Below are positions 40,779-58,024 of a stretch of DNA of 64,000 nt, in pieces; position 1 is the first letter of the stretch; each line of letters opens with the position of its first letter. Source of the DNA: Chloroflexota bacterium (lineage in GTDB: Bacteria > Chloroflexota > Anaerolineae > Anaerolineales > Villigracilaceae); assembly GCA_016234485.1 (NCBI GenBank), contig JACRBL010000013.1, positions 39,411 through 103,410 on the forward strand. The letters are read 5' to 3'. A program made the position numbers and the translations under genes. Under the pieces are notes generated by a model, which worked only from the letters and a program-made list of their open reading frames with translations, had not been told where the DNA came from and did not search any database.

Positions 40779-43175
40779 CTATCCCACCGCCACAAACTTC
40801 CCCTTCCCCACAGGGAAGGTCGTACCGAACAGGATTGGGGAGCCAGAATCCGCGTAACTGTAGACAGGCCACATCAATACGTCGCCGCGCTCGAGGCGCT
40901 CGTGCGAGACGCCCGCGTAGATGGGAGTCAACGCCGCGATCTCTTTCATGATCTCGCCCGCGGTGGCATACATCCAGGCGGCGTAGGAGCCGTCGGGGGC
41001 GCGCCCGCTCAAGGTCAGGATGCGACGCGCCAAGTCCGAGATCACTTGCCAGCCAGGCCGCGCTTCACCTTGCGGTTCGATCGCCTTCCGCACCAGTTGA
41101 ATCCGTCGCTCGGTGTTGGTGTACGTCCCCGACTTTTCCGCAAAACTGACGCCAGGCAGGAGCACGTCGGCGTAATGCGAACCCTCGGACGCCATCACGT
41201 CGCACACGGCCACGAACTCGCAGTTTTCCAGGGCGTGGCGGGTGAGCATGCCCGTCTCGTCCGACCAGAGATTTCCGCCGATGACGAAGAGCGCCTTCAA
41301 CGCGCCTTGTTCCGCCGCGTACATCATTTCGGGCGCGGAAAGGCCAGGCCGCGATGGCAGTTCCGTTCCCCATGCCGTTTCGAATTTTTTATGCGATTGT
41401 TTTTCGGCCACGGGCTGGTAACCCGAATAATACGCGGGCAGGCCGCCCATATCGAAGGCGCCTTGCGAATTGTTCTGGCTTCGCAACGGCGCCAGCCCGC
41501 CGCCCGATACGCCGAGATTGCCGAGCATCAATTGCAGGTTGGCCAGGTTCCGCACCGCGTCCGCGTTGGCGCCCTGGTGTGAAATATCCGCCCCCCACAC
41601 CACCGAGCACGGACGGTTCGCAGCGATGACCTGCGCGGCCTGTTTCATTTTTTCGACGGGCACGCGGGTCGCCTGCGAAACATGCGCCAGATCAACCTTT
41701 TCAATGGCCGCCTTCAGTTCATCGAATCCCTGCGTGCGTTCCTGAATGAATTTCGAATCCATCCAGCCGTTATCCAAGATGATCTTCATCAACCCGTTGA
41801 GCAACGCGCTCTCGGAGCCGCGTTTGTAGCGCATCGCAAGCGTGGCATATTCTTCGATGTTGTAAAAGATGGGGCTGGCCGTGATCAGTTTGGCCTTGCG
41901 CCGCAACACCGCCTGACGGATGCGCGTCCCAAAGACGGGATGATTCTCGGTGATGTTCGAGCCGATGACCAAAATGGATCGCGCGTTGTTGGCGATGTCG
42001 TCCATCGAATTCGACATGGCCGCGAGTCCCAGCGAGCCGATCAAGCCATCCACGATACTGCCGCGGATCATGTGCGCGCCGCAATCAATGTTGTTCGTTC
42101 CCATCACCTGGCGCGCCAGTTTGTTCATCAGGTAATTTTCTTCATTGAACGATTTCGCCGATGTCAACAAGCCGACGCTTTCGCCGCCGTGACGTTCGCG
42201 CGTGGACGCGAGTTTTTTCGCCACGATGTTCAGCGCGGTCTCCCAATCCGCTTCCACCCACGGACCTCGGTTGGCGGGGCGCGGCGTTCCTTCGAGCAGA
42301 TACTTGCGGACGCGCGGCCGCCTCAGCCGATTCTCGGAGTGGATGAAGTCGTAGCCGTAGCGTCCCTTCAAACAAAGATGGTCGCCATTGACAGGCGCCT
42401 TCGCGTTCGAATCCACCGAGATGACGCGCTCCCCCATCCCGTCATTTTTGATGTTCAGATAGAGTTGACAGCCCACCCCGCAATACGGACAGATGGCCGT
42501 CACCGTTCGGTCGGGATGTCCCAACTTGACCGACATGCGGTTATCCAACGCACCCGTTGGGCAGTGCGCCACACACGCGCCGCACGACTCACAACGCGAC
42601 TGGAGCATGGACGAATCCGCGCCCGCCACGATGCGAAGGTCGTAGCCGCGATAGGCCTGTGTCCAGACGAAACGTCCCTGCACTTCGGCGCAGGCGCGTA
42701 CGCAACGCGTACACATGATGCACTTGTTCTTGTCCACCCAGATGTATGGATTCGGGTCGCTGTCTATCTGGCGGAACGGCTCATGCGCCATGGCCTTCTT
42801 CATATCAATGCCATAGTAGTTGACCCAATACGCGAACTGCGAATCCAACTCGGGCTTAAGCGCGCCGTTGGTCTTTTTGTAGCCCGCATCGTAGAAGCGC
42901 ACCAGCAGGAGTTCCAGGATGGTTTTGCGGTAGCGCGTGAGCGCGGGGCTTTCGGTCTGCACCACCATCCCAGGCGAGACGAGCATGGTGCAGGCCGTGG
43001 CAGGCAGGCGCATGCCTTGAATATCCACAGAACACAGACGACACCCGCCGTAGGGCGTCAGGTCTTTGTGATGGCATAACGTCGGGATGACGATGCCCGC
43101 CTGTTCCGCGGCTTGCAAGACGGTGGTATTTTCCTTGACTTCCAGGGTTTGACCATTGATCGTTAAACTAATCAT
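40779..43175 (-). CDS. formate-dehydrogenase/NuoG-like molybdopterin-family subunit with degenerate active site
   Basis: A 798-residue protein. The N-terminal [2Fe-2S] domain has CHHKDLTPYGGCRLC and CTM. Next come CIMCTRCVRAC and CESCGACVAHCP ferredoxin motifs, then the CPYCGVGC cluster and a molybdopterin oxidoreductase domain. The segment that reads DCCARV(U/C)HGPS in formate dehydrogenases is DCGAHMIRGS here, so the catalytic Sec/Cys is Ile370 and the His is Arg371. The His-Cys3 motif expected near residue 105 is absent. The protein stops at GKGKFVAVG, before the C-terminal molydopterin-binding domain. It is therefore probably an electron wire, not a formate dehydrogenase. The ATG at 43175 has AAGGA upstream. 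It is last in the hyf-nuoEF-like operon. Confidence 0.85.
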   Translation of the reverse strand: MISLTINGQTLEVKENTTVLQAAEQAGIVIPTLCHHKDLTPYGGCRLCSVDIQGMRLPATACTMLVSPGMVVQTESPALTRYRKTILELLLVRFYDAGYKKTNGALKPELDSQFAYWVNYYGIDMKKAMAHEPFRQIDSDPNPYIWVDKNKCIMCTRCVRACAEVQGRFVWTQAYRGYDLRIVAGADSSMLQSRCESCGACVAHCPTGALDNRMSVKLGHPDRTVTAICPYCGVGCQLYLNIKNDGMGERVISVDSNAKAPVNGDHLCLKGRYGYDFIHSENRLRRPRVRKYLLEGTPRPANRGPWVEADWETALNIVAKKLASTRERHGGESVGLLTSAKSFNEENYLMNKLARQVMGTNNIDCGAHMIRGSIVDGLIGSLGLAAMSNSMDDIANNARSILVIGSNITENHPVFGTRIRQAVLRRKAKLITASPIFYNIEEYATLAMRYKRGSESALLNGLMKIILDNGWMDSKFIQERTQGFDELKAAIEKVDLAHVSQATRVPVEKMKQAAQVIAANRPCSVVWGADISHQGANADAVRNLANLQLMLGNLGVSGGGLAPLRSQNNSQGAFDMGGLPAYYSGYQPVAEKQSHKKFETAWGTELPSRPGLSAPEMMYAAEQGALKALFVIGGNLWSDETGMLTRHALENCEFVAVCDVMASEGSHYADVLLPGVSFAEKSGTYTNTERRIQLVRKAIEPQGEARPGWQVISDLARRILTLSGRAPDGSYAAWMYATAGEIMKEIAALTPIYAGVSHERLERGDVLMWPVYSYADSGSPILFGTTFPVGKGKFVAVG

Positions 43176-43201
43176 GGTTGTTATCCTTTTTCTTCTCAAT
43201 G

Positions 43202-43305
43202 TTCGCGAGCAGTTGAACTGCGAGCCCGCCAGCAGTGCAACTGCTGGCAAACGGTTGGTACCGCAAGATTTATCTTGCGAGAGTCGCAACATGAATGTTG
43301 CGGTA
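43202..43305. repeat. family D copy 3 plus two further hairpins
   Basis: The GCGAGCAGTTGAACTGCGAG and GCCAGCAGTGCAACTGCTGGC hairpins are followed by CGCAAGA-TTTA-TCTTGCG and CGCAACAT-GA-ATGTTGCG, framed by GGTACCG and GCGGTAC. The structure fills the spacer between the NuoF-like and FDH-like genes. Confidence 0.7.
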
Positions 43306-43321
43306 CTGATAGATTCAACGG

Positions 43322-44962
43322 CTACGCAACTGCCGCCAATTCCTTGATCGGACAAACGCCCGTCGGGCAGACGTGGTCAACGATGTGCGCTTCCACTTCC
43401 GCGCGGAAATATTTCAGGATGTCGCGCAGGGCGGTGGCGGCGGTCTGGCCGAGGCCGCAGTTCGAGACTTCGGACATGGCTTCGGAGATCTTCTGCATCA
43501 GGTCAAAATCATCGAGCGAGCCGCGTCCCTCCGAGATCTGGCTGATGATTTCGTAAAGGCGCAACGTGCCGATACGGCAGGGCGTACATTTTCCGCAACA
43601 CTCGTTACGGAAGAAACGCAGGATCACCTTCGCCAGATCCACCACGCAGGTATCTTCGTCACAGACGAGCAACGCGCCCGAGCCGAGGGACACGCCCGCG
43701 TTGCGGAACGCGTCGAAGTCGAGCGGCGTGTCCTGCAAACTGGCAGGGACGATCGTCCCGCTCGATCCGCCCGTTTGCACGAGTTTGAGCGCCTTGTCGT
43801 TCTTCATCCCTTTGCCGTAAATGTCAATTACTTCGCGCAGGGTAATGCCCATCGGCGCTTCGATCACGCCCGTGAAGTTGACGTTGCCCAAAATGGTGTA
43901 AACCTTCGTGCCCGTGCTCTTCGGCGAACCGACTTCGCGATACCACATCGCGCCGTTGCGGATGATGGCTGGCATGCTGGCAAGCGTCTCCACGTTGTTG
44001 ACGACCGTCGGCTTGCCGTAGAGTCCGTACGTGGTCGGGTACGGCGGACGGGCGCGCGGCATGCCGCGTTTGCCCTCCAGCGATTCGATCAGCGCGGTCT
44101 CTTCGCCGCAAATGTACGCGCCCGCGCCCGCGTGCGGATGAATGTGGAAACTGAAATCCGTCCCGAAAATATGCTCGCCCAACATGCCGTGTTTCTCCGC
44201 TTCGGCAATGGCATGTTCGATGCGTTTATACGCCAATGGATATTCGCCGCGAATGTAGATGAAACCTTCGTGCGCGTTGATGGCGTAGCCCGCGATGGTC
44301 ATCGCTTCGATGATGCTGAACGGATCGCCCTCGATGATGAGGCGGTCTTTGAACGTGCCAGGCTCGCTCTCGTCCGCGTTGCAGATCACGTACTTAGGAC
44401 TGCCTGGCGTGGCCGCCACGAAACTCCATTTGCGCCCCGTCGGGAAGCCTGCGCCGCCGCGTCCCTGCAGACCCGACTTCTCCACCTCCGCGATCACTTC
44501 CGCGGGAGTCATCTTGGTCAGCGCCTTGCCGAGCGCCTGATAGCCGTCGTAAAGAATATAGTCTTCGATGCTGGCGGGGTTCACCACGCCCGCCCGTTCC
44601 AGCACGATGCGTTTTTGCACGGGCAACGCGCCGCGGCGTCCACGCATCCAGCCGATCTCGGGAGCCATCTCGCGCATCATCGCCAACAGGCCAGGGACGA
44701 TGTTGCCCTTGTGGAGATGCTCCTCCACGATGGTGTGCACGTCCTCCACCGTCACGGGTCCGTACACCGCCGCGTCGGGGTAGACGATGACGGTGGGCTT
44801 CTCGCCGTGCATGCCCGCGTCACGGATGGTCGTCACGGTGATCTGGTCGGAGAGGCCAAACTCGTCGATCTCCTCCAGAAAGGCGTGGAAGACATCCTGC
44901 GCGCCGCGCGCCAGGCTTTCATCATCGGCTGAAACAAGAACCATCGAACGGATAATTTTCAT
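43322..44962 (-). CDS. NuoF/HydB-like flavoprotein subunit
   Basis: A 546-residue NADH-binding flavoprotein. Residues 1-90 are a thioredoxin-like domain without cysteines, so the extra [2Fe-2S] cluster found in HydB-type proteins is missing. The FMN/NADH core follows with GLQGRGGAGFPTGRKW (near 167) and GAGAYICGEETALIESLEG. An SLBB domain comes next, and the [4Fe-4S] motif is CCGKCTPCRIGT with the fourth Cys in SNCGLGQ. The tail ends CPTGVCP. GAGGTG precedes the ATG. With the NuoE-like and FDH/NuoG-like partners it would form an NAD(P)H-reacting module attached to the Hyf hydrogenase. Confidence 0.9.
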   Translation of the reverse strand: MKIIRSMVLVSADDESLARGAQDVFHAFLEEIDEFGLSDQITVTTIRDAGMHGEKPTVIVYPDAAVYGPVTVEDVHTIVEEHLHKGNIVPGLLAMMREMAPEIGWMRGRRGALPVQKRIVLERAGVVNPASIEDYILYDGYQALGKALTKMTPAEVIAEVEKSGLQGRGGAGFPTGRKWSFVAATPGSPKYVICNADESEPGTFKDRLIIEGDPFSIIEAMTIAGYAINAHEGFIYIRGEYPLAYKRIEHAIAEAEKHGMLGEHIFGTDFSFHIHPHAGAGAYICGEETALIESLEGKRGMPRARPPYPTTYGLYGKPTVVNNVETLASMPAIIRNGAMWYREVGSPKSTGTKVYTILGNVNFTGVIEAPMGITLREVIDIYGKGMKNDKALKLVQTGGSSGTIVPASLQDTPLDFDAFRNAGVSLGSGALLVCDEDTCVVDLAKVILRFFRNECCGKCTPCRIGTLRLYEIISQISEGRGSLDDFDLMQKISEAMSEVSNCGLGQTAATALRDILKYFRAEVEAHIVDHVCPTGVCPIKELAAVA

Positions 44963-45005
44963 CTTTCACCTCTTCTCGACAAAGAGCCGCTTCATCCTGA
45001 ACCCG

Positions 45006-45509
45006 TTACTGGTACTTCGCCAAAATCTCTGGCACCCGCTCGGGCGTGACGTTGCCGTACAGGTCATCGTCCACGAGGAAGACGGGGCCAACGCTGCAGA
45101 CGCCGATGCAACTCGTCGTGAGCAGAGACCACTTTCGGTCCGCGCTGGTTTCGCCAGGTTGGAGTCCCAACTCGCGCTGTAACGTGTCGAACACTTCGCG
45201 TCCGCCCTCCACGTGACAGGGCGCGCTCTCGCAGAATCGGATCACATGCCTGCCGAGCGGTTCGAGCGAGAACATCTGATAAAAGCTCGCGGCAGAATAC
45301 AGGTGACTATCCGCGACGAAGACGCCCTCCTGCTTTTGCTGTGCCTGAATGTGACGGCGGATCTCAGGCAGCGCCGCGGCGGGAATGTATCCCAGCGCGC
45401 GGTTGATCTCGCTCAGAATCGGAATGACCGCGTCGCGCGTCGAGCCAAGCTCGTCCATCACCTTCGTCACCAAACTGGCGATATCCAAATCCTTGACTTC
45501 GGGTTCCAT
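45006..45509 (-). CDS. NuoE/HydC-like [2Fe-2S] subunit
   Basis: A 167-residue thioredoxin-fold ferredoxin of the 24-kDa complex I subunit family. The four ligands are visible as CESAPC (near residue 94) and SCIGVC (near 136). The helical N-terminal domain LSEINRALGYIP is typical. It works with the NuoF-like subunit in NAD(P)H oxidation or reduction. AGGAG lies eight bases before the ATG. The 43-base gap to the NuoF-like gene and the common strand indicate one operon. Confidence 0.92.
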   Translation of the reverse strand: MEPEVKDLDIASLVTKVMDELGSTRDAVIPILSEINRALGYIPAAALPEIRRHIQAQQKQEGVFVADSHLYSAASFYQMFSLEPLGRHVIRFCESAPCHVEGGREVFDTLQRELGLQPGETSADRKWSLLTTSCIGVCSVGPVFLVDDDLYGNVTPERVPEILAKYQ

Positions 45510-45543
45510 AAAAATTTCTCCTGTTTCGTCACTCTTCCATGTC

Positions 45544-45630
45544 CGTCATTGCGAGCGTTCTTTGCGAAGCAATCCCCTCGTACTGTCGGGAGATTGCTTC
45601 GTCGGGAAGATCGCCCTCCTCGCAATGACG
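45544..45630. repeat. family A palindromic repeat, copy 7
   Basis: CGTCATTGCGAGCGTTC...GATTGCTTCGTCGGGAAG...CTCGCAATGACG, between the NuoE-like and HndB-like genes. Confidence 0.85.
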
Positions 45631-45641
45631 GCTGGCTAAAT

Positions 45642-46028
45642 TCAAATCGTCGGGAACGGCGTGGCGTCAATGACGTAATCTTCGACGACCTTCCCATCCA
45701 GGACATGCTCGCGCACAATGCGTTTCACCGCGTCGACGGTGACGCGTCCATATGTGACCTTGGGCTGGTCGCCGATCACGACTTCGAGAATCGGCTCGTG
45801 GTGGCACAGACCGATGCAACCCGTCTCTGACACAACCGCGCCATCGAGATGGTCGGCCTTCACCTGCGCTTTGACGGCTTGCAACACATCCAGCGCGCCC
45901 GCCGCGATTCCGCAACTGCCGAGCGTGACGATCAATTCCACTTTGCCCGCGCTGGCCTTGCGGCGCTTCTCTTCAATGATCTGCTCGCGAAATTTTTTCA
46001 GGTCTTCAAGTGATTGAATTTTTTTCAT
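45642..46028 (-). CDS. HndB-like (2Fe-2S) thioredoxin-fold protein
   Basis: A 128-residue protein of the HndB/thioredoxin-like ferredoxin family, found with NADP-reducing and electron-bifurcating hydrogenases. Cysteines are in LGSCGIAAGA (near residue 37) and ETGCIGLCHHEP (near 72), as in HndB. A basic helical N-terminus (KFREQIIEEKRRKA) precedes the fold. The ATG at 46028 is chosen; a GTG at 46034 is possible. Its presence next to NuoE/NuoF-like genes makes the module resemble NAD(P)-linked hydrogenases. Confidence 0.85.
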   Translation of the reverse strand: MKKIQSLEDLKKFREQIIEEKRRKASAGKVELIVTLGSCGIAAGALDVLQAVKAQVKADHLDGAVVSETGCIGLCHHEPILEVVIGDQPKVTYGRVTVDAVKRIVREHVLDGKVVEDYVIDATPFPTI

Positions 46029-46036
46029 AGTCACAG

Positions 46037-46116
46037 TTCCTCAACGCGAATATCGCGAATGGGCGAATGACGCAAATTTATTTTTTTATTCGCGGCATTC
46101 GCGGCATTCGCGTTAA
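46037..46116. repeat. iterated-word palindrome (GCGAAT/ATTCGC type)
   Basis: GCGAATATCGCGAATGGGCG is mirrored by ATTCGCGGCATTCGCG and GCATTCGCG around an AT-rich centre. It lies between hycI and the HndB-like gene. Confidence 0.65.
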
Positions 46117-46146
46117 AAATTGGCCGATTGCTCACACCAACACAGA

Positions 46147-46602
46147 TCACGACAAAGTCTCCCATGTAGCATCATCCCGTTTCAGGGATTCGTAGATCCG
46201 CGTCACGGCCTTCTGCACTTCGGGGAAAACGGGATAACCAAATGCCACAACGCGCGGCTGGACTCCCAGCAACTCCACTTTGGGGACGAATTCCTGCAAC
46301 GAAAGCATCAAATACGTGAGCGGAAGCGTGTGCGTCGTCATGATGAACGGGTCATCCACGCGGGTCGGGTCAATGAGGCGGACATCGCCAGGCTCCAATC
46401 CCATCTCGGCCGCGTCCACGATCAACGCGTGGTCGGGATTCATTTCGCGGATGCGCCACAGGTAACTTTCGGGCGCGTTGCCGCCGTCGAGCAAGTCCCA
46501 GCCTTCGAGCGGCTTGCTCTCGATCATGCGCGCCAGTAGAGGGCCGACCGCGTCATCGCCCATCATTTCGTTGCCAACCGTCACAACCAGTTTCTTTTTC
46601 AT
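46147..46602 (-). CDS. hycI: hydrogenase 3-type maturation protease HycI
   Basis: A 151-residue Ni-dependent endopeptidase that processes the large subunit of group 4 hydrogenases. VTVGNEMMGDDAVGP at the N-terminus carries the first acidic ligand, VDAAEMGLEPG the second, and TTHTLPLTYLM the conserved His. Its ATG overlaps the hycH stop (ATGA), so it is coupled to that gene. The substrate should be the HyfG-like large subunit in the same operon; it differs clearly from the protease at 39244 that serves the MvhA-like enzyme. Confidence 0.9.
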   Translation of the reverse strand: MKKKLVVTVGNEMMGDDAVGPLLARMIESKPLEGWDLLDGGNAPESYLWRIREMNPDHALIVDAAEMGLEPGDVRLIDPTRVDDPFIMTTHTLPLTYLMLSLQEFVPKVELLGVQPRVVAFGYPVFPEVQKAVTRIYESLKRDDATWETLS

Positions 46603-47003
46603 TGGCGCATCTTCACCATCAAATACAAGGCAGGCTCGGCGTTGATCTGATCCAAATAGTGGACAAACCGCGCCGTCCATTCTTTTTCGTCCGCGTTCAT
46701 TGTGGACATGGACGCGTCCAGCATGGACTTCAATCCGCTGACATGACTTTGATTGATCTCGATCTCGTCAAAGGCCAGCGCGCCTTCCAACTTGCGACGC
46801 CCCTCTCCTTCGGGCAGGCGGGACAGCCACTTCCCGAACGCCTCCGCAGGGACGGCCATCAGCTCGTCGAAGCAGTCCATTACGCCCACGTGATGCCCGA
46901 TCGCCAGCGAGTAATACACAATCTGACGGGCATCCTCGGGGACACTCTGCTGGTTGCTGACGACTTTTCGTCCGAGTTGGTAGAAGACGATTTGCGGTTC
47001 CAA
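46599..47003 (-). CDS. hycH: formate hydrogenlyase maturation protein HycH
   Basis: A 134-residue maturation factor of the HycH family, needed for large-subunit maturation of hydrogenase 3. The segment RQIVYYSLAIGHHVGVMDC and the C-terminal ALYLMVK are nearly the same as in E. coli HycH, and the length is equal (136). The start is TTG at 47003, preceded by AAAGGAA, since no ATG fits. It overlaps hycI. Its presence supports a Hyc/Hyf-type (group 4a) hydrogenase rather than an Ech or Mbh enzyme. Confidence 0.92.
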   Translation of the reverse strand: MEPQIVFYQLGRKVVSNQQSVPEDARQIVYYSLAIGHHVGVMDCFDELMAVPAEAFGKWLSRLPEGEGRRKLEGALAFDEIEINQSHVSGLKSMLDASMSTMNADEKEWTARFVHYLDQINAEPALYLMVKMRQ

Positions 47004-47019
47004 TGGTTTCCTTTGTTCT

Positions 47020-47177
47020 CGTCATTGCGAGGAGGGCGCTCTTCCCGATGAAGCAATCTCCTGGTCGTGCGCGGGGATTGCTTCGCTCTGTTGGTCTCGA
47101 TACGCTCGCACACCTGCCCTGGCGGGCGGTGCCAGGGAAGAACGCTCGCTACTCGACCAACTTCGCTCGCAATGACG
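47020..47177. repeat. family A palindromic repeat, copy 8, with nested insert
   Basis: A 158-base copy. The usual arms (GTCATTGCGAGG...GCTCGCAATGACG) enclose extra sequence that includes a 27-base element at 47111-47137. The same 27 bases occur inverted at 50414-50440 and 52874-52900. It lies between hyfI and hycH. Confidence 0.8.
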
Positions 47178-47188
47178 ATGCACGAGTT

Positions 47189-47971
47189 TTACGCTTTACG
47201 CATTAGATAAATCTCACTCAATCGTCCAAAGATCTCCGTCAAACGCGAATCGTCTTTTTGCGCGAGAAAATTTTGGATATTGCGTTCGATGTCCGAAGCG
47301 GGAGCCTTCAACAGGTTCAGGAAAGAATCGGCAATCTGCTGGCCGTGCCAGTAGCCAGCCATCCGTCGGGACTCGCGCTCCACGTCCACGCGCAAATCCA
47401 ACGGCAGTTCGGGGTGACGCGGTTGGACGCGTTCGTCCTCCCCCTCCACGTGATGCGTCGCCTTGAGTTTTTGACTCAGGATTCCCAACGCCATCGCGAA
47501 GCCGAAGATGGTGGCGGGCGGCGTGGGCGGACAGCCAGGGATGTACGCGTCGATCGGGATGACCTGATCCGCGCCGCCCCAGACGCAATAGAGGTCGTGG
47601 AAGATCCCGCCCGAGGAGCCGCACGCGCCATACGCCACGCAGACCTTCGGATCGGGCGCGGCGTGATAGGCGCGCAACGCGGGGACGCGCATCGAGCGCG
47701 TCATCGAACCCGTGTAGAGGAGGATGTCGGCGTGACGCGGCGAAGAGACGACCTTGATGCCGAAGCGTTCGGCGTCGAAGATCGGCGTGATAGCCGCGAA
47801 GATCTCGATTTCGCAACCGTTGCATCCGCCACAGTCCACGCGGTAGACGAAGATCGAGCGGCGGATGTCGTGCAGGAGCGCGCCCTTCAACGCCGCGGTC
47901 TGATCGTCCATGTGGATAGCATACTGGGTCTCGCCCATCAGGGTGTCGCGTCGCTTGTAATCGGTGACCAT
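47189..47971 (-). CDS. hyfI: HyfI/HycG-like hydrogenase small subunit
   Basis: A 260-residue NuoB-type Fe-S subunit of the group 4a hydrogenase. The [4Fe-4S] ligands are in DCGGCNGCE (near residue 48), GACGSSGG (near 117) and PGCPPTP (near 147). The C-terminal 80 residues are a family extension rich in charged helices. The ATG at 47971 overlaps the hyfH stop by one base (TAATG). It relays electrons from the ferredoxin subunit to the HyfG active site at the membrane interface. Confidence 0.9.
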   Translation of the reverse strand: MVTDYKRRDTLMGETQYAIHMDDQTAALKGALLHDIRRSIFVYRVDCGGCNGCEIEIFAAITPIFDAERFGIKVVSSPRHADILLYTGSMTRSMRVPALRAYHAAPDPKVCVAYGACGSSGGIFHDLYCVWGGADQVIPIDAYIPGCPPTPPATIFGFAMALGILSQKLKATHHVEGEDERVQPRHPELPLDLRVDVERESRRMAGYWHGQQIADSFLNLLKAPASDIERNIQNFLAQKDDSRLTEIFGRLSEIYLMRKA

Positions 47972-48507
47972 TAGACTGCCTCCTGATTCAGCGCAACCAG
48001 TTTGACGATATCGTTCTTCCGCCTGCAAGTGGGACACATCGCCAACAGCGCGCCGCGCTCCGCGAGTTCATCGCCCGTCACGCCCGATTGTTCGAGCAGG
48101 GCAAGGACGTAGGTCAACTCTTTGGCGGGCGCGAACAACACGCCGCAACGCGTGCAGGCGGCCAACCTGTAATCGGCCTGCTCGTAGAGATCGGCCTTGT
48201 TCATCACCGCCAATTCAAAGTCGTGGCTGAGCGAGATGGCGCGCGTCGGGCAGACCTCCTCACAGCGTCCGCAATAGATGCATCGCCCGTAGAAGATCTG
48301 CCAGGTGATGATGCCTTCGTCCAGATTGGTCGTCATCGTCAACGCGTTGGGCGGACAGGCCACCGCGCACGCGCCGCAGGCGATGCACTGCGCGGGGTCA
48401 TGTTGCGGACGGCCGCGGAACCCAGGCGTCAAATCCACCGCCACAAAGGGATACGGGACAGTGGCCTCGCCAACTTTCAAGACTTCACGGAGTAATTTGA
48501 AAGGCAT
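47971..48507 (-). CDS. hyfH: HyfH/HycF-like ferredoxin subunit
   Basis: A 178-residue two-cluster ferredoxin (NuoI-type) of the hydrogenase. The motifs are CIACGACAVACP (near residue 41) and CIYCGRCEEVCP (near 76). A C-terminal zinc-ribbon-like pair, CTRCG (near 118) and CPTCRRK (near 158), is also found in HycF. GGAG precedes the ATG at 48507. The stop overlaps hyfI by one base. It links the small subunit to the electron-input module. Confidence 0.92.
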   Translation of the reverse strand: MPFKLLREVLKVGEATVPYPFVAVDLTPGFRGRPQHDPAQCIACGACAVACPPNALTMTTNLDEGIITWQIFYGRCIYCGRCEEVCPTRAISLSHDFELAVMNKADLYEQADYRLAACTRCGVLFAPAKELTYVLALLEQSGVTGDELAERGALLAMCPTCRRKNDIVKLVALNQEAV

Positions 48508-50363: not shown

Positions 50364-50382
50364 GGTGATCTCCGTTTATTCT

Positions 50383-50490: not shown

Positions 50491-50497
50491 AGAAAAA

Positions 50498-52117
50498 TTA
50501 ATGTCCGCTAAAGAACGAGAAAAACGATTCGACGGACAACCCGCCCAGAGGTCCCGCCACCGATGCGCTTCCATTCGGACCCGCGAGCGGGGTCGCGGTC
50601 ACTCCAGCGTTAACCACCTCGACGGCGCCGTTCAGCAAGTCGGTCAACTGCGCGGGCATGAAGAGTCCGAGGACGAGCGCCAACACCATCAGGATGGCAA
50701 TCGGCGCGAGCGTGGTAAATCCGCTTTCGCCATTTTGAATCTCAACAGGCTTCTGGCCGAGCGTCACAGAACTGCCCATGCGGAAGAGCGCCGTGAAGGC
50801 CAGCATGAGCAGTAACATGCAGACGATCATCAACCACCAGTAGCCTGTGGCGATGCCCGCCGAAACGATCAGGAACTTGCTGAAGAAAATATTGAAGGGC
50901 GGCGCGCCGACCAGTGCGAAGACGCCCGCCAGCAGGAAGAAGCTCGTCAGCGGCGCGGCTTGCATGAGGCCTTTCACCACGTCCAAACTGCGCGAGCGAT
51001 ATTTCATCAGGATGTTGCCCGAGAGGAAGAACATCATCGTTTTGACGATGCTGTGATTCACCAGTTGAAGCAGTCCCGCCAAAATGCCGATGGGACCGCC
51101 AAGGCCGAGGGCGATGAGGATCAGGCCAATGTTCTCGGGGCTGGAATAGGCCAGCAGGCGGTTGATGTCTTTTTGTCCCATCATGAAGAAGACCGCCGCG
51201 GCGAGAGAGATAACGCCAAAGACGAGGAAGAGGATCTGTGCGAAGGATGTACCCAGCGCGAGATTGACGATGATCGAGAAGCGGATGATGACGAACAGCG
51301 TGCAGTTGACCAGCACGCCCGAGAGCAGCGCGCTGACGGGGCTGGGCGCTTCGCTGTAGGTATCGGGAAGCCACGAGTGCATGGGGACGATGCCCGCCTT
51401 GGTGCCGAACCCGATCAGGATGAAAACGAAGGCCAGTTTCAACAGAGTCGGGTCGAGCGTGGAGGCGTTCTTGACGATCTCCGTCCACAGGCTGGCTTTG
51501 CTGGTTTCCTGAATCAGATTCACCGCGTCCGAGTAGACGAGGATCGTTCCGTACAAGCCGAAGGCCACGCCCACCGTGCAGATAACCACGTACTTCCACG
51601 CGGCTTCCAGCGCGGGACGCGTCCCATACAGCCCGACGAGGAAGGCCGAGCTGAGCGTGGTCGCTTCGATGGCGACCCACATGATGATGATGTTATTGGA
51701 CGTGACCGCCAGCAACATGGTGAAGAGGAAAAAATGGAAGAGGCTGTAAAAGACGCGCAGGCGTCCCATGTCGAGACCGCCGATGGCGATGTCGTGATTG
51801 GTGTATCCGACGGCGAGTTCATGGCGGGTGAATCCAATGGAATAAATGCCAGATAGGAATCCCATTACTCCCACGATGACAACGAAGAGCGCGCCGAGCG
51901 AATCCACTCGCAGCCAGTCGCTGAAAGCCAGCGCTTCGCCCGCGTCGAGAACCTGACCCGCCACGATGAAGGTAAGAACGAGGGTCGCGGTCACGCTGGC
52001 GAGATGGAGAAATTCCAAAATCGGACGGGTGAAATCTCCGAACCAGTGCACGATGAGCGACAGAACGGAAGCGATCAGCGGGACGAACAGAAGCCAGATC
52101 AGGTGAGGGGATTCCAT
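50498..52117 (-). CDS. hyfF: HyfF-like antiporter-type membrane subunit
   Basis: A 539-residue membrane protein of the NuoL/M/N-MrpA/D superfamily with about 14 helices. The TM5 glutamate region is MWVAIEATTLSSAFLVG. The broken helix is in GIVPMHSWLPDTYSEAPSPVSALLSG, and DINRLLAYSSPENIGLI replaces the usual lysine position with Asn. It is a proton- or sodium-pump module of the hydrogenase. It follows hyfE by nine bases. Hyf complexes carry three such subunits (B, D, F) and the shorter Hyc complexes only one, so this locus is Hyf-like. Confidence 0.9.
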   Translation of the reverse strand: MESPHLIWLLFVPLIASVLSLIVHWFGDFTRPILEFLHLASVTATLVLTFIVAGQVLDAGEALAFSDWLRVDSLGALFVVIVGVMGFLSGIYSIGFTRHELAVGYTNHDIAIGGLDMGRLRVFYSLFHFFLFTMLLAVTSNNIIIMWVAIEATTLSSAFLVGLYGTRPALEAAWKYVVICTVGVAFGLYGTILVYSDAVNLIQETSKASLWTEIVKNASTLDPTLLKLAFVFILIGFGTKAGIVPMHSWLPDTYSEAPSPVSALLSGVLVNCTLFVIIRFSIIVNLALGTSFAQILFLVFGVISLAAAVFFMMGQKDINRLLAYSSPENIGLILIALGLGGPIGILAGLLQLVNHSIVKTMMFFLSGNILMKYRSRSLDVVKGLMQAAPLTSFFLLAGVFALVGAPPFNIFFSKFLIVSAGIATGYWWLMIVCMLLLMLAFTALFRMGSSVTLGQKPVEIQNGESGFTTLAPIAILMVLALVLGLFMPAQLTDLLNGAVEVVNAGVTATPLAGPNGSASVAGPLGGLSVESFFSFFSGH

Positions 52118-52126
52118 GGTACGCCT

Positions 52127-52777
52127 CTATCCTTTGAGCGTTTGCAATTCAGCCGAATCCAGCGTGTGCAGACGTTTATAGATTTGTCCTGCGAGCGCCA
52201 CGAGGATGATGACCGCGAAGACCGCGTCGGTGGCGATGCCGATCTCCACGAGTTCGGGCGCGCGATAGGCAAGCAAGGCCAGGGTCAGGTGCGAGCCGTT
52301 TTCCATCAGGCAGAAGCCGAGGATCTGTTTGAAGAGATTTCGTTGGGTGACGATGCACAATTGACCGAAGAAGAAGTGCGCGACAGAGATCGCCAGCGCG
52401 GGGATGAAGTCCGCGGCGGATTTCAGCTCGATCTGACTCACGACTGTGAAGGACACCACGACAGCAAGAGCCGCCAGCAAAACCGAGACAGGAGCGCTAA
52501 CCGTGTTGAGCGATGTGACGGTCTGGTCTACTTTGCCCAACGCGCGGTAGAGAATCACAGGGACGAGCACGACCTTCGTCAGAAACGCGCTCGCCGCCCA
52601 CAGGTAGAGCTGGTCGGCTTCCATCCGAATCGCCAGCGCGAGGAAGATTGCCACGAGGATCAGCGACTGGAAACTATATAGGATGGCCGATTGGCGCGGC
52701 TTCTTCGTCTCAATCACGAGCAGGGATGTGAGGAGGAGCAGTCCGCTTAGGGTGTTGATCAGGTTGACGTTCAACAT
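52127..52777 (-). CDS. hyfE: HyfE-like membrane subunit
   Basis: A 216-residue membrane protein with six or seven helices, homologous to HyfE and partly to NuoK. The helix with NLFKQILGFCLMENGSHLTLAL carries the NuoK-like glutamate, and ELVEIGIATDAVFAVIILVAL is the next helix with its acidic residues. The ATG at 52777 with GGAG eight bases upstream gives the family length; longer readings pass through repeats. HyfE is specific to Hyf-type hydrogenases. Confidence 0.88.
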   Translation of the reverse strand: MLNVNLINTLSGLLLLTSLLVIETKKPRQSAILYSFQSLILVAIFLALAIRMEADQLYLWAASAFLTKVVLVPVILYRALGKVDQTVTSLNTVSAPVSVLLAALAVVVSFTVVSQIELKSAADFIPALAISVAHFFFGQLCIVTQRNLFKQILGFCLMENGSHLTLALLAYRAPELVEIGIATDAVFAVIILVALAGQIYKRLHTLDSAELQTLKG

Positions 52778-52786
52778 GTTGGTCTC

Positions 52787-52848
52787 CGAGGGAGGTACAC
52801 AGGTAGACACGTAAACAAGTAGGCAGGTACACAAGTACGCAGGTGTTT
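52787..52848. repeat. iterated-word stretch (ACAGGTAG/ACAAGTAG type)
   Basis: Direct, imperfect repeats of GGTACACAGGTAGACACG and AACAAGTAGGCAGG lie between hyfE and family A copy 11. Unlike other iterated-word elements, no clear reverse-complement arm is visible. Confidence 0.55.
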
Positions 52849-52850
52849 CC

Positions 52851-52964
52851 GTCATTGCGAGGAGGGCGCTCTCCCTGGCACCGCCCGCCAGGGCAGGTGT
52901 CCCGACGAAGCAATCTCCTAGTCGTACGCGGGGATTGCTTCGCAACGAACGCTCACAATGACGA
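52851..52964. repeat. family A palindromic repeat, copy 11, with nested insert
   Basis: CGTCATTGCGAGGAGGGC...CGCTCACAATGACG with the 27-base insert at 52874-52900, in the same orientation as copy 10 and opposite to copy 8. It lies between hyfD and hyfE. Confidence 0.8.
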
Positions 52965-52973
52965 GCGAGGCCC

Positions 52974-54419
52974 TCACTTCAACCACGCCATCGCGAAGAA
53001 GCCAGAGAGAAGCGCGAGGCACGCCAGAATGACGAGGGCGAACTTCATCGAAGGCGCAATGTCGGATGCGGCCGCGACTTCGGCGGAGGAATCGCCAGGC
53101 ACAGACGAGCTAAAGACCCAGAACAGCCAGGCGAAACTGCCGATGGTCTCCAGAATGGCGATGACGACGAGGATCATCAAAAGTGGCGCATTCTTGGCGG
53201 CTTCGAAGCCGCCCGCGAAGATGGTGAACTTGCTGAAGAATCCGTTGAAGGGCGGCACGCCCGTCACAGCCAGCGCGGCGACCGCGAAGCAGATTCCCAC
53301 GAGTGGCATCTTCTTGAGCAAGCCCTTCAAGTTCGGCAACAGGCGCGTCCCCGTGGAGAAGCCGACCGCGCCCGCCACGAGGAAGAAGAGTCCCTTGCCG
53401 AGAGCGTGGTTGAAGACGTGGGCGATCGCGCCGTTGAAGGCCGTCGCGGAGCCGAAGATCGAAAGGGACAGCGCGAAGAAGATATAAGACAACTGCGTGA
53501 TGGTGGAATACGCCAGCAGGCGTTTGAAATCTTTTTGCGGGAAGTACATCAACAGGCCGTAGAACATGGTGACGATCGCCATGATGACGCCCACGACCCC
53601 GATGACTTGCGGAACCGTCCCCGCAGAGAGCAGACAACGCGCGAAGATGTAGACGCCCGCCTTCACCATTGAAGCTGCGTGCAGGTACGCGCTGATCGGC
53701 GTCGGCGCGGCCATCGCGTCGGGAAGCCAGAAGTGGAGGGGCAACTGCGCCGACTTGCCCCAGGCTGCGATCAGGATGCCGATGAAGAGCCAGGTTTTGA
53801 TCGTGTCGTCCAACGTTGCGAACGCGGAGAGTTGGAAGCCGCCCGTCAATACGAAAAAGGCAGCAGTAGCGATGAACAATCCCACGGAGGCCAACTCGGT
53901 GGTGACAATGGCTTTCAGCGCGGCCTTGAGCGATTTCTCGTCGTTGTAGTAACCAATGAGTCCCCACGAGCAGACGCCCGTCAACTCAAAGAAGGCGAGC
54001 AGGCCAAGCATGGTGGAGGACATCACCAGTCCCGCCATCGCGCCGATGAAGGTCAGCAGGAAGAAGTAATAGCGACGTTGCACGCCGTTGTGTTCGACGT
54101 GGTCGCGGTTCTTCTCGGAGAGGTATCCGCCTGAATAAACCACCACCAGGAACCCGAACAGGATGAAGACCGAGCCGAGTAACGCGCTGATCTTGTCCAC
54201 GATCACGCCGTAGAGGACGATGTCGCCGAAGAAGAGTAGGTCTTGGGTATAGCCGACCTTGCCCGTCATGCCGAGACTGTACAGGACGAACAGCGTGCAG
54301 AGCATCGCAGCAAACGTGACGAGTTGACTGGTCGCTTTCACCCACGAACGCGGCAGGATCAGCACGAGAAGGCTTCCCAAAAACGGGAGCAGGATGCCCG
54401 CGAGCACGAATGTCACCAT
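52974..54419 (-). CDS. hyfD: HyfD-like antiporter-type membrane subunit
   Basis: A 481-residue antiporter-like subunit with about 14 helices. FFELTGVCSWGLIGYY contains the TM5 glutamate, WGKSAQLPLHFWLPDAMAAPTPISAYLH the broken helix with its lysine, and DFKRLLAYSTITQLSYI the second lysine, so the ion path looks intact. It closely resembles the NuoL core without the C-terminal lateral helix. It follows hyfC by 12 bases. It is the second of three pump modules in this hydrogenase. Confidence 0.9.
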   Translation of the reverse strand: MVTFVLAGILLPFLGSLLVLILPRSWVKATSQLVTFAAMLCTLFVLYSLGMTGKVGYTQDLLFFGDIVLYGVIVDKISALLGSVFILFGFLVVVYSGGYLSEKNRDHVEHNGVQRRYYFFLLTFIGAMAGLVMSSTMLGLLAFFELTGVCSWGLIGYYNDEKSLKAALKAIVTTELASVGLFIATAAFFVLTGGFQLSAFATLDDTIKTWLFIGILIAAWGKSAQLPLHFWLPDAMAAPTPISAYLHAASMVKAGVYIFARCLLSAGTVPQVIGVVGVIMAIVTMFYGLLMYFPQKDFKRLLAYSTITQLSYIFFALSLSIFGSATAFNGAIAHVFNHALGKGLFFLVAGAVGFSTGTRLLPNLKGLLKKMPLVGICFAVAALAVTGVPPFNGFFSKFTIFAGGFEAAKNAPLLMILVVIAILETIGSFAWLFWVFSSSVPGDSSAEVAAASDIAPSMKFALVILACLALLSGFFAMAWLK

Positions 54420-54431
54420 CTCATACTCCTT

Positions 54432-55370
54432 TTAGATCCTGACCAGATAAAACGCGAAGCACAACAGTCCCACGCCGACGGCGATCCACGTGAACGAGGG
54501 GGCTTTGATGAAGCGCGTACGCGCCATGGCGTTTTCCAGAATGGCGGCGAGGAAGTAGAGCGCCGCAGCTTTGATGAGGAAGATCGCCAGTGCGAGCAGT
54601 CCGCCCAACAGCGAGAGAGTTGTCATCGTGCCGAAGGGAACGAAGACCGCGATGAAGAGCGAGACGACCGCCAGTTGCTTCATGTAGAAGCCCCACTGCA
54701 TCAGCGCCAGTCCGCGGCCAGAGTATTCGGTGAAGGCGCCCTCCTGCAATTCCTGTTCGGCTTCGGAAAGATCGAAGGGAAGTTTGCCCGCTTCCACGAA
54801 GACCACGAACGCGAACGAGACCATCCCCAGCCAGACCGTGGCGAGGTAGGGGATCGCGCCCGTCGCGACGCCGCGGCTGATGGCGCCGAGATTGGTTGAT
54901 TCTGCGAGCAGGGACATGACGAACAGCACCAGCAGGATCAACGGCTCCACCAGCGCCGAGACGAACAACTCGCGGCGCGCACCCATCCCGCCGAAGGTGC
55001 TGCCCGAGGAGAGTCCCGCGAGCGACGTGAAGAAGCGCGCCAGCATCAGTAGGTAGACGACGAGGATCATGTCGCCGACCCAGCCGAAGGGTGAGTCCGC
55101 GGCGAGAATGGGGACGATCATCACGACCAGCAGCGCAGAAACAATCGTCACGTAAGGCGTGATGCGAAAGACCAGGCTTCCGTGCGCGGGCAGAATCTCC
55201 TGCCGCTTCATCAACTTGAACAGGTCGTAATAATTTTGCAACAGCGGAGGTCCATGCCGCGAGTGCATCTTGGCGCGCAACACTCTGGCAAAACCAGAAA
55301 AGAGCGGAGCCAGGGCGGCGACGAGAACCGCTTGCAGGAGGCCAATGAAAATTAAACTGCCAGTGGTCAT
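54432..55370 (-). CDS. hyfC: HyfC/HycD-like membrane subunit
   Basis: A 312-residue NuoH-type subunit with about eight helices that links the hydrogenase module to the membrane arm. LRAKMHSRHGPPLLQNYYDLFKL (residues about 33-55) corresponds to the first cytoplasmic loop of NuoH, and PFDLSEAEQELQEG (near 197) is the acidic loop. GLSSGSTFGGMGARRELFVS is typical of HycD/HyfC. It lies nine bases after hyfB. Confidence 0.92.
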   Translation of the reverse strand: MTTGSLIFIGLLQAVLVAALAPLFSGFARVLRAKMHSRHGPPLLQNYYDLFKLMKRQEILPAHGSLVFRITPYVTIVSALLVVMIVPILAADSPFGWVGDMILVVYLLMLARFFTSLAGLSSGSTFGGMGARRELFVSALVEPLILLVLFVMSLLAESTNLGAISRGVATGAIPYLATVWLGMVSFAFVVFVEAGKLPFDLSEAEQELQEGAFTEYSGRGLALMQWGFYMKQLAVVSLFIAVFVPFGTMTTLSLLGGLLALAIFLIKAAALYFLAAILENAMARTRFIKAPSFTWIAVGVGLLCFAFYLVRI

Positions 55371-55379
55371 GGGTCTCTC

Positions 55380-57398
55380 CTACTTGAAAATCACGATCAG
55401 CAGAACGGCGAGCGCGATGAAAATGTAGAGACAGTACATCCGCAGGTCGCCCATTTGCATGCGCTGCACCCAGCCCCCCACTGTCCGCACGAAGGCGAAG
55501 ATCGGCTGGGAGACGGTTCGCTCGACGACGGGTTCCGCGGCGGGAAGCGACGCGCCGAATCTCTTCGCGAACGACGCGATCCCGTCCAGCGGTTTTTGCG
55601 CGAGCGTGCGCAAAAGATACAGCGGACGAAACGCGGCCAGCATCGGTTGGGCAAAGTTCGTGGCCGAGATGCCCATCTGCGGCTGGTAGCCGTACCCGCA
55701 CGCCCACGGATCCGCATCGACCCGTTGGCCTGCTCGGTGACCTCCGAGCGCGAACACGGCGACGAGCGGGAAGGTCAGCAAGCCCGCGTGGAGCAGGAAA
55801 ATGATCGGCGTGGACAGGACGCCCTGCGCTTCATTCCCAGGGAAAATTTGGATGCCGCTCGCCAGCGTTTCAGTCGGGACGTTTGCCACCTGTGCCGCGA
55901 CTCCCCCGATGAACGGCGTCACCCACGGCGCGCCGAGGCCAAGCAGAGTGACGGCAATCGCGAGCGCTCCCATCCCCGCCAGCATCGAGCCTGGGACTTC
56001 GACCGCGTCCCGCGCGTGAACGCTACGCGGCTGACCCGTGAACGTCGTCCCATACGCCTTGACGAAAGTCATCGCCGCCATCGCGCCGACGAGACCGAGC
56101 AACACGGCGAACAGCGGCGCGAAGACTCGCAACACGCCGAGTTCAGTACTGCTGGCAATGAACAGCGACTGGAAGACAAACCACTCGCTGACAAATCCAT
56201 TCAACGGAGGGATGGCCGAGATCGCCACCGCGCCGACGAGGAAGACGAAACTCGTCCACGGCATGGCGCGGGCGAGACCGCCCATCTCGTTCATGTTGCG
56301 CGTGTGCGCGGAATAAACGACCGCGCCCGCGCCCATGAACAAGAGTCCCTTGAACATGGCATGGTTGAGTAAGTGATAGAGCGCGGCTAAAAATCCGATT
56401 ACTGCCAGCGTGGGCAATTGCAGAGACATGCCCATCATCCCGACACCGACGCCCATCAAAATAATGCCGACATTCTCGACGCTGGAATAAGCCAGCAGGC
56501 GCTTCAGGTCGCGCTCGTCGAGGGCGTAGACGATGCCCAGCAACGCGGACAACCCGCCGAAGCACAGCACGACGAATCCCCACCACCAGAGCGGCGCGCC
56601 GAGAATGTCCACGCACAGGCGGATGAGACCGTAGATGGCGGTCTTGATCATCACGCCCGAAAGCAAGGCCGAAACATGCGAAGGCGCGGCAGGATGCGCG
56701 CGCGGGAGCCAGATGTGCAGAGGCACAATGCCCGCCTTCGCGCCGAAGCCGAAGAAGGCCAGCAGAAAGATCAGGCTTTGAATGCCGAGGGGCAAACCCG
56801 CGTTGCGGAAGGAGTCGAAATCAAAACTACCCGTCTGCTGATACAGGATGAAGAACGACAGCATGATTAGCGCCGTTCCGATATGCGCGATCAGGAAGTA
56901 GAGATAGCCCGCGCTGACCGATTCCTTTTTTTCCTGCTCGAAGATGACGAGGAAGTAGGAGGCCAGCGTCATCAACTCCCAGAAGATGAGGAAGTAGAAG
57001 GCGTTGGCGACCGTCACCACCATCAACATGGCGGCGATGAAAATATTGTTGAAGAAACCCAGTTCGCCGCACCCGCGTCCGCGATATTCGTGGACGTAAC
57101 CGATGGAGTAGATGCTGGCCGCGAATGCGAGCAGGGAGATCGCCCCGACCATGAACGCGGAGAGACCGTCCATTGCAAGGACGAAGCGACCGAACGCGGA
57201 GAAGCCAGTCAGCTCGAGTGAGGCGGAGTCACCCACGAACGCGGCCAGGGCGGAGAGAAACGCCAGCACGGAGGCCGCGGCCCCTCCCAGTCCAGAAACG
57301 ACGCGGGCGGGGCGTTCGAGTCCGCGCAGGAGCAGGGAGAGCAGTCCCGTCGCCGCGAACGTCAGTGCGGAGGATATGAGGAGTTGGATGGCGTCCAT
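55380..57398 (-). CDS. hyfB: HyfB/HycC-like antiporter-type membrane subunit
   Basis: A 672-residue subunit with about 16 helices. The TM5 region is FLIFWELMTLASYFLV, the broken helix is in AGIVPLHIWLPRAHPAAPSHVSALLSG, and DLKRLLAYSSVENVGII has the second lysine. The C-terminal extension (residues about 520-640) includes the conserved ACGYGYQPQMGISATNF segment of HyfB/HycC and ends in a last helix. It is the distal pump equivalent of NuoL. Its ATG overlaps the hyfA stop by one base (TAATG). Confidence 0.92.
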   Translation of the reverse strand: MDAIQLLISSALTFAATGLLSLLLRGLERPARVVSGLGGAAASVLAFLSALAAFVGDSASLELTGFSAFGRFVLAMDGLSAFMVGAISLLAFAASIYSIGYVHEYRGRGCGELGFFNNIFIAAMLMVVTVANAFYFLIFWELMTLASYFLVIFEQEKKESVSAGYLYFLIAHIGTALIMLSFFILYQQTGSFDFDSFRNAGLPLGIQSLIFLLAFFGFGAKAGIVPLHIWLPRAHPAAPSHVSALLSGVMIKTAIYGLIRLCVDILGAPLWWWGFVVLCFGGLSALLGIVYALDERDLKRLLAYSSVENVGIILMGVGVGMMGMSLQLPTLAVIGFLAALYHLLNHAMFKGLLFMGAGAVVYSAHTRNMNEMGGLARAMPWTSFVFLVGAVAISAIPPLNGFVSEWFVFQSLFIASSTELGVLRVFAPLFAVLLGLVGAMAAMTFVKAYGTTFTGQPRSVHARDAVEVPGSMLAGMGALAIAVTLLGLGAPWVTPFIGGVAAQVANVPTETLASGIQIFPGNEAQGVLSTPIIFLLHAGLLTFPLVAVFALGGHRAGQRVDADPWACGYGYQPQMGISATNFAQPMLAAFRPLYLLRTLAQKPLDGIASFAKRFGASLPAAEPVVERTVSQPIFAFVRTVGGWVQRMQMGDLRMYCLYIFIALAVLLIVIFK

Positions 57399-58024
57399 TA
57401 TTCTTCTCCTTGCGCGTCCACCGACGGCTCGTCCACTTTCACGCGGGCAAAGGCCTTGACCTGAACCATGCGCTCATCAGGTGCGTGGGTCGGGTAATAC
57501 GTCAACGCCTTATGCGGACAGGCACGCGCACACGCGGGTCCTTGCGGGTCGAAATAGCACAGGTCGCATTTGAGCGCCACCTTGCGTTGGCCGATGCTCC
57601 ACGCCAGCAGGGAGAGGTACCCCTGCGTGTTCATTTCGCGCAGATACATCGGCTCGGATTGATAGGGCGTGTTGACGTAGGAATACTGCCCGATGTCGAA
57701 ACCCAGCACGGGGATGGGCGAGCCACCTGGCAGGATCACGCCAAACGGACAAGCCAGCCCGCACATCTTGCAACCGATACACAACCCCTCGTTGAGTTGC
57801 ACAGTATGGTCTTTCATCACGATGGCCTTCACAGGGCAGACCGTCGCGCAGGGCGAATCGTCACATTGGCGGCATTGCATCGGCATCGTGCCATCGGGCG
57901 TGTTGGTGACGACGAGACGTGGATACGCCTGCAAGCCCATCCTGCGATGGTTTTCCACACAGGCGGCCTGACAGGCAAAACAACCGATGCAACGACTTGA
58001 ATCGGCAAGCACAAAACCGTTCAT
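57398..58024 (-). CDS. hyfA: HyfA/HycB-like four-cluster ferredoxin subunit
   Basis: A 208-residue Fe-S protein with four [4Fe-4S] motifs: CIGCFACQAAC (near residue 12), CRQCDDSPCATVCP (near 50), CIGCKMCGLACP (near 81) and CDLCYFDPQGPACARACP (near 150). In formate hydrogenlyase this subunit connects the dehydrogenase to the hydrogenase. It is the first gene of the operon. The ATG at 58024 has GGAG six bases upstream. The Cys spacing in the second and fourth motifs is the usual extended type. Confidence 0.92.
   Translation of the reverse strand: MNGFVLADSSRCIGCFACQAACVENHRRMGLQAYPRLVVTNTPDGTMPMQCRQCDDSPCATVCPVKAIVMKDHTVQLNEGLCIGCKMCGLACPFGVILPGGSPIPVLGFDIGQYSYVNTPYQSEPMYLREMNTQGYLSLLAWSIGQRKVALKCDLCYFDPQGPACARACPHKALTYYPTHAPDERMVQVKAFARVKVDEPSVDAQGEE

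Follow-up and report, generated by a model that had tools for sequence, protein, structure and literature searches.

The window analysed here is a 64,000-nucleotide stretch from a Chloroflexota bacterium of the class Anaerolineae (GenBank assembly GCA_016234485.1, contig JACRBL010000013.1; G000:C61:39411-103410 in our numbering, where G, C and L mark genomes, contigs and loci), whose genome of 4.46 Mb in 68 contigs is 94% complete and has Anaerolineae/Chloroflexota metagenome-assembled genomes (MAGs) as its nearest named relatives. It carries a Hyf-type [NiFe] hydrogenase operon that runs on into HndB-, NuoE- and NuoF-like genes and a gene for a formate dehydrogenase (FDH)-like protein which, judged by its residues, is catalytically dead with its Fe-S wiring kept. 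The 15 genes lie on the minus strand from 58024 to 40779 in the order hyfABCDEFGHI-hycH-hycI, then HndB-, NuoE-, NuoF- and FDH-like, and this set, order and strand, claimed in an earlier sequence-only reading, were borne out by coordinates and by family matches. HyfB, D, E, F, HycH and HycI were graded by NCBIfam equivalog or subfamily cut-offs; comparisons with formate hydrogenlyase (FHL) are to solved chains of the E. coli enzyme.

57398..58024, minus strand: hyfA, HycB-like ferredoxin with four [4Fe-4S] Cys motifs; best solved match FHL HycB (7z0s_B, 162 bits)
55380..57398, minus strand: hyfB, antiporter-like subunit (NF005086, 789 bits, cut-off 667)
54432..55370, minus strand: hyfC, NuoH-like membrane subunit, named with the help of its operon position (NuoH family, 96.9 bits, under cut-off)
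52974..54419, minus strand: hyfD, antiporter-like subunit (NF005097, 618 bits, cut-off 430)
52127..52783, minus strand: hyfE, small membrane subunit (NF008556, 279 bits, cut-off 136)
50498..52117, minus strand: hyfF, antiporter-like subunit (NF005044, 663 bits, cut-off 610)
48630..50363, minus strand: hyfG, [NiFe] large subunit with a C-terminal tail for HycI; closest solved chain HycE (7z0s_E, 869 bits)
47971..48507, minus strand: hyfH, two [4Fe-4S] motifs and a C-terminal CxxC/CPxC pair as in HycF (FHL/hydrogenase-4 Fe-S subfamily NF009053, 227 bits, cut-off 204)
47189..47941, minus strand: hyfI, hydrogenase small subunit, NuoB-like (NF005012, 117 bits, cut-off 116)
46599..47003, minus strand: hycH, maturation protein (NF011664, 165 bits, cut-off 145; PF07450)
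46147..46608, minus strand: hycI, large-subunit protease (TIGR00142, 138 bits, cut-off 119)
45642..46034, minus strand: HndB-like [2Fe-2S] thioredoxin-fold protein with 3 Cys (Pfam 2Fe-2S_thioredx PF01257, 19.4 bits, under the Pfam cut-off)
45006..45509, minus strand: NuoE-like [2Fe-2S] subunit (PF01257, 135 bits)
43322..44962, minus strand: NuoF-like flavoprotein (PF01512, Complex1_51K; PF10589, NADH_4Fe-4S)
40779..43175, minus strand: dead FDH-like subunit of 798 aa, best start ATG 43175 (FDH-alpha-like, 513 bits, under the equivalog cut-off of 666)
40730..40758, minus strand: possible operon end, a perfect 11-bp hairpin 20 bp past the last stop, without a strong T run; read directly and not among the terminator-scan matches

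Gaps among the 15 genes measure -10 to 190 bp, and the one at the border between Hyf and the added module, from hycI to the HndB-like gene, is 112 bp, inside the range of the gaps within hyf and with no minus-strand match in the terminator scan.

HyfG keeps both CxxC pairs of its [NiFe] site (RICGIC in 129/129 and DPCYSC in 127/129 rows of its clade) together with the HycI-type tail, as in Hydrogenase-4 and not as in the quinone-reducing NuoCD of complex I, which is without [NiFe] ligands, and by its similarity to HycE and Hyf it was judged to be of group 4a type. The large membrane arm HyfB to HyfF is present, with B, D, E and F over their cut-offs and C under, and HyfB, HyfD and HyfF each have one Glu and two Lys at the usual antiporter-like places. 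Among the matches listed, many members of the HyfG clade carry a 'formate hydrogenlyase' annotation in their source databases.

In the FDH-like protein the catalytic selenocysteine (Sec) or Cys position is Ile370, the following His position is Arg371 and the C-terminal part of active FDHs is missing, so the earlier claim of a destroyed active site was upheld; the 858-aa form from a TTG start at 43355 given with that claim is a start-site choice, for which ATG 43175 is preferred, and changes nothing. The operon thus holds neither the catalytic Sec/Cys and bis-molybdopterin guanine dinucleotide pocket of an NAD-dependent FDH nor the active Sec/Cys FDH that serves as the input subunit of FHL-2. 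The state is shared by a whole clade: Sec/Cys is missing in 129 of 130 rows, which rules out a local mutation or sequencing error, and none of the 130 is long enough for the C-terminal pterin domain. More than 99% of these rows retain all 16 Fe-S cysteines, and the ligand sets of one [2Fe-2S] and three [4Fe-4S] clusters are intact in the window protein; both ferredoxin-type clusters and N7 are retained, and the His-Cys3 cluster N5 of complex I NuoG is absent. The counts cover 128 distinct rows out of the 130, after removal of six duplicates and of rows under 700 aa, and after distant rows or rows outside the clade had been dropped (L138_714, L057_1959, L123, L126, L128 to L134, L139); among the active rows used for comparison, contig ends truncate L083 and L084, and L119 (852 aa) stops at a TGA.

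The neighbouring NuoF-like protein, whose closest solved match is HydB of a bifurcating NiFe hydrogenase (7t2r_B), keeps the FMN/NADH motif (GRGGAGFPTG in the window) and the N3 cysteines of NuoF in 9/9 Hyf-linked rows, the features of a diaphorase module, and NAD(H) is accordingly its predicted substrate. NuoE carries the BfuC-type [2Fe-2S] Cys pattern in 8/9 rows, the ninth being cut by a contig end, and the HndB-like protein has its 3 Cys in 7/8 Hyf-linked copies, with the eighth likewise cut. The cysteine count of HndB is no clean marker of Hyf, because copies of both kinds exist away from it: among four counted beside other FDHs three are without Cys and one has 3, and further copies have 3 (L059, L060, L068, L070) or none (L062, L076).

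The dead FDH follows Hyf across genomes. Among 61 relatives, Hyf was found at 77% identity or more in G000, G002, G007 and G011, and the dead-clade FDH in these same four only (4/4 versus 0/57); the remaining NuoG-type FDH rows were initially sorted by frame length or TGA, and eight further full-length rows without TGA (G019, G003, G026, G053, G046, G322, G155, G411) all had a Cys-His active site. Across the class (396 genomes), Hyf was present in G000 and G081 only (E at most 1e-180), and the dead gene in G000 only among the 10 genomes with an FDH match at 1e-260 or better. Of 49 genomes behind named loci (from 50 of 80 loci), 8 had Hyf at 76% or more, all 8 with the dead gene, and the remaining 41 gave no Hyf match above 44%. 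This makes 11 Hyf genomes, 10 with the dead gene, and no dead-clade module without Hyf was found among the genomes examined; the synteny check proposed with the sequence-only reading supports that reading, with a conserved dead clade accompanied by Hyf in every genome examined. The eleventh, G081, has no dead-clade gene and carries FdhF directly before hyfA with a TGA (selenocysteine) exactly at the catalytic place, which on its sequence is an ordinary FHL; in the HyfG tree, G081 and P0144 branch apart from the dead-module rows. As G081 displays the plain FHL layout, that identity was ruled out for the window operon.

The collinear layout of the window recurs in G443 and G455, and also in G011, where it is split by a contig end inside NuoE; in G446 and G470 the module is divergent from hyfA, with a histidine kinase and a response regulator between. 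Beyond these genomes, 11 dead-FDH and 11 HyfG protein-database entries lie on contigs of exactly equal size (10.9 kb to 4.99 Mb), where shifted lists gave a mean of 0.055 such pairs and at most 1; the protein lists hold the best 120 entries, and the pairing of the 11 dead proteins rests on equal contig sizes, not on read contigs. Distances of 20 HyfG/dead-FDH pairs also correlate (r 0.74; 0/5000 permutations). As a separate observation, a histidine kinase-like gene stands beside hyfA in L066, L090, G002 (L037) and G454 (L153), placed between hyf and the divergent dead module, with a response regulator where the contig continues, and a response regulator also precedes FdhF in G081 (L143:24-656). 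In the window no such regulator was seen beside hyfA; for other genomes, the names histidine kinase, response regulator, transposase and nuo were assigned by eye, without a family search.

Gene order, the [NiFe] and Fe-S ligands, the NuoF motif, the loss of the FDH active site and the co-occurrence with Hyf are direct observations. Since the FDH has lost its active site and kept its Fe-S wiring beside NADH-module genes, we think it rather probable that Hyf, HndB/NuoE/NuoF and the dead FDH form one membrane complex passing electrons between NAD(H) and H2, and not from formate; the exchange, its direction and the ion pumping are predictions. NADH would reduce FMN on NuoF, and electrons would move through its N3-type [4Fe-4S] cluster to the [2Fe-2S] and [4Fe-4S] clusters of the dead FDH and on through HyfA, HyfH and HyfI to the [NiFe] site of HyfG, reversibly, with the former FDH acting as adaptor and wire like NuoG in complex I. 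Exit from the dead FDH could be through the ferredoxin-type clusters or through an N7-type cluster facing HyfA, as in FdhF; the N5 step used by complex I is not an expected exit, because that cluster is absent. The downstream carriers are those of the solved FHL chain, given as FdhF A1, HycB B1-B4, HycF F1-F2 and HycG G1 in PMC9474812, all but the first of which have counterparts encoded by the window Hyf genes. The three antiporter-like subunits of the membrane arm would couple turnover to ion movement. With E' of -280 mV for NADH and E0' of -414 mV for H2 (values in PMC9304861), our own arithmetic puts the break-even of NADH to H2 near 3 Pa H2, and the complex would for this reason probably act as a reversible valve, releasing H2 when partners hold it very low and reducing NAD+ when it is high.

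Several points weigh against such a single NAD(H)-linked complex. Pumping on NADH alone is doubtful, since H2 formation from NADH runs uphill unless H2 is very low. The N-terminal Fe-S region of the dead FDH may also cover the surface through which FdhF contacts HycB. Residues 100-210 of the dead FDH are partly of low confidence in the predicted structure (pLDDT 42 to 75). Loss of N5 is common to close active FDHs, which rules it out as an adaptation to Hyf. In G002 the order is the same, with two transposase-like genes inserted, HndB 7.4 kb from hyfA and the module on the other strand, and in G007, G445 and G454 module and Hyf lie on different contigs (the module contig beginning within 0.5 kb of HndB in the latter two). 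Vertical descent alone could give the correlation of distances, and it or co-regulation, rather than one complex, might explain why the genes occur and lie together. NuoF, moreover, keeps the ligand positions of cluster B2, tied to bifurcation in PMC9304861.

This last point bears on electron confurcation, in which NADH and reduced ferredoxin would both be oxidised at NuoE/NuoF/HndB and the averaged electrons would reach Hyf via the dead FDH, with enough drive for H2 and pumping; we regard this as unlikely, though worth weighing. The B2 positions in the window are C439/S477/H526/C532/C537, of which 439, 526, 532 and 537 are kept as C/H/C/C in all nine Hyf-linked NuoF rows (position 477 holds Ser in eight rows and Ala in one), including the equivalent of His525, the B2 His that PMC9304861 describes as absent from non-bifurcating homologues. 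The HydB match of NuoF and the HndB cysteines point the same way. The same four residues, however, occur in 17/47 NuoF rows beside active FDHs and so are not special to Hyf, and none of the nine Hyf-linked rows has the C-terminal 2x[4Fe-4S] domain (the B3/B4 ferredoxin port, IPR017896 in BfuB) or the N-terminal [2Fe-2S] cysteines of B5. Ferredoxin, which the sequence-only reading had offered as an electron source beside NAD(P)H, is thus weakened by the missing port, and the retained B2 ligands leave room for confurcation with it.

Alternatively, there could be two enzymes in one regulon, Hyf being fed through HyfA by ferredoxin or another FDH and NuoEF, the dead FDH and HndB forming a separate soluble diaphorase, a reading we consider improbable. 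The divergent or separate placement of module and Hyf in some genomes would suit it, as would the intact FDHs elsewhere in the host genome, at least two in number (a Sec-FDH with its own NuoEF on C37 and a Cys-FDH on C48). An intact FDH elsewhere, bound to Hyf, had been named beforehand as evidence that would overturn the NAD(P)H-linked complex; the C37 and C48 enzymes exist, which answers to this in a weak sense. FDH matches that resemble C48 in size and identity (36 to 42%, lacking the N-terminal Fe-S part) occur in 31/57 relatives without Hyf, so this type does not track Hyf. Two separate enzymes are further opposed by the constant company of module and Hyf, by the need of a diaphorase with a dead third site for a partner, and by the loss of its usual input to a Hyf without its own FdhF gene. 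That the FDH-like protein keeps some pterin chemistry on a changed substrate, with Hyf as electron sink, seems very improbable to us: its predicted fold is intact and several pterin-domain motifs are still conserved, but the catalytic position drifts over 16 different residues other than Cys, the C-terminal domain has no room in any row, and the pocket residues of the active clade (D434, R436, G530 to H534, H644) have mostly disappeared.

The dead form of the FDH goes back to a single origin. A 105-row tree that left out the active-site, N5 and C-terminal columns groups 33 dead rows in a single clade (SH-aLRT 100), placed within the active NAD-linked FDHs and next to active L061, L118, L074 and L083, and L118 and L074 have the HndB-NuoE-NuoF-FDH order. 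The NAD-dependent FDHs (FdsABG type, 6tg9; L074 and L118 in Anaerolineae) share the gene order of the module and about 50 to 58% identity in the FDH, and are likely its ancestor type; unlike the dead FDH, they keep Cys/Sec and the C-terminal domain. Active NAD-linked FDHs coexist with the dead copy in G446, G454, G470, G011 and G000, on contigs other than that of Hyf. Dead FDHs also stand elsewhere in the tree (L057/L105 of G035, and L138 of a Proteobacteria MAG), are not part of the dead-clade counts, and raise the number of changes needed to 3. The L057 gene (1947-4448, the same as L105) is an independent case, with no Sec/Cys, too short for the C-terminal domain and with its N5 ligands kept, and is flanked by a NuoEF fusion and, in tandem with it, an active Sec-FDH; Hyf of the window type is absent from G035.

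Complex I is thought to have acquired NuoEFG as its NADH module. In complex I NuoEFG and in the large subunit of the Stn/Nfn-ABC transhydrogenase an FDH-like fold serves as a non-catalytic Fe-S conduit, as we propose for the dead FDH, which differs from NuoG and Stn in being a separate and more recent conversion with N5 absent and both ferredoxin-type clusters and N7 kept; its partner is a [NiFe] site with intact ligands, where that of complex I is quinone. The operon looks like another natural instance in which an NADH module and a former FDH have joined a group 4 hydrogenase whose [NiFe] ligands are intact. We give roughly even weight to the fuller idea of a living hydrogenase-type complex I, in which Hydrogenase-4 exchanged its FDH input for an NADH module and an NAD-linked FDH became an Fe-S wire once, in Anaerolineae, repeating the complex I step independently and still making H2 at [NiFe]. 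Such a possible living parallel would allow the succession of steps, from joining of the module through loss of catalysis to a later quinone site, to be tested in an enzyme that exists today. The 'formate hydrogenlyase' annotation would be wrong for this HyfG clade, which matters for predicting the H2 and formate fluxes of Anaerolineae.

Among known systems, FHL-2/Hyf, for example of Pectobacterium atrosepticum (PMC7384014), and E. coli FHL-1 (PMC9474812) share with the window the core, the HycB/HyfA and HycF/HyfH chain and HycH/HycI, and FHL-2 also the large membrane arm; their input is an active FdhF, that of the window operon a dead FDH with NuoE/NuoF/HndB. Nearest in kind is the Mbh-Bfu complex predicted for Dehalococcoides (PMC9304861). 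It too would link a group 4 hydrogenase to a diaphorase of NuoE/NuoF type (BfuABC) in Chloroflexota, and it has a full BfuABC core, ferredoxin port included, flanked by six energy-converting hydrogenase genes. The window instead has Hyf with three antiporter-like subunits, a NuoF without B3/B4 and an adaptor derived from FDH. In an engineered ferredoxin-Hyd-3 fusion (PMC5817251) a formate hydrogenlyase was also given another donor; that rewiring is man-made and uses ferredoxin, where the one here is natural and predicted to use NAD(H). The literature searched, whose coverage left out most subscription papers and preprints, did not describe Hyf combined with NuoEF and a dead FDH. The earlier remark that no described complex with exactly this set was known is qualified by Mbh-Bfu, in which a group 4 hydrogenase joined to a diaphorase had already been predicted, with other parts.

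An apparent mirror image was seen in Desulfobacterota MAGs (L131-L134; L130 in part), where a complex I-like operon of nuoB, C, D, then H, I, J, K, L, M, N (by eye) has the place of NuoG taken by a TGA-containing 889-aa formate dehydrogenase with a NuoG-type N-terminus (e.g. L132:7530-20498). The NuoD-like stretches of L131 and L132 showed no CxxC pair, and from its genes the operon looks like a formate-fed complex I.

Around the Hyf operon, a 214-aa membrane protein without a Pfam match is encoded just past its end (window 39913-40557, minus strand), and a second [NiFe] large subunit, VhuA/MvhA-like, lies beside it on the opposite strand (37662-39140, plus), within a region (23245-39777) of genes resembling HdrA, HdrB/C and Etf subunits (named by eye). 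Look-alikes of the complex I membrane arm, NuoN, M, L, J and H (by eye), occupy 8277-17252 on the minus strand, and in the host genome contig C3 has both NuoD-type and NuoG-type matches and C30 a NuoD-type one. A plasmid search with NuoF returned only matches under 60% identity.

Group 4 large subunits about 43% identical to HyfG were also found in three other genomes, with an in-frame TGA exactly at the second Cys of the N-terminal [NiFe] motif (RICGI-TGA-G):

L042 around 11782-13389; L045 13441-15096, minus strand; L044 6322-7890: TGA-containing group 4 large subunits (G013, G030, G035)

A group 4 large subunit of G026 has Cys at this place. In known NiFeSe hydrogenases the selenocysteine is in the C-terminal motif, and the TGA codons of G013, G030 and G035 suggest a selenocysteine away from it.

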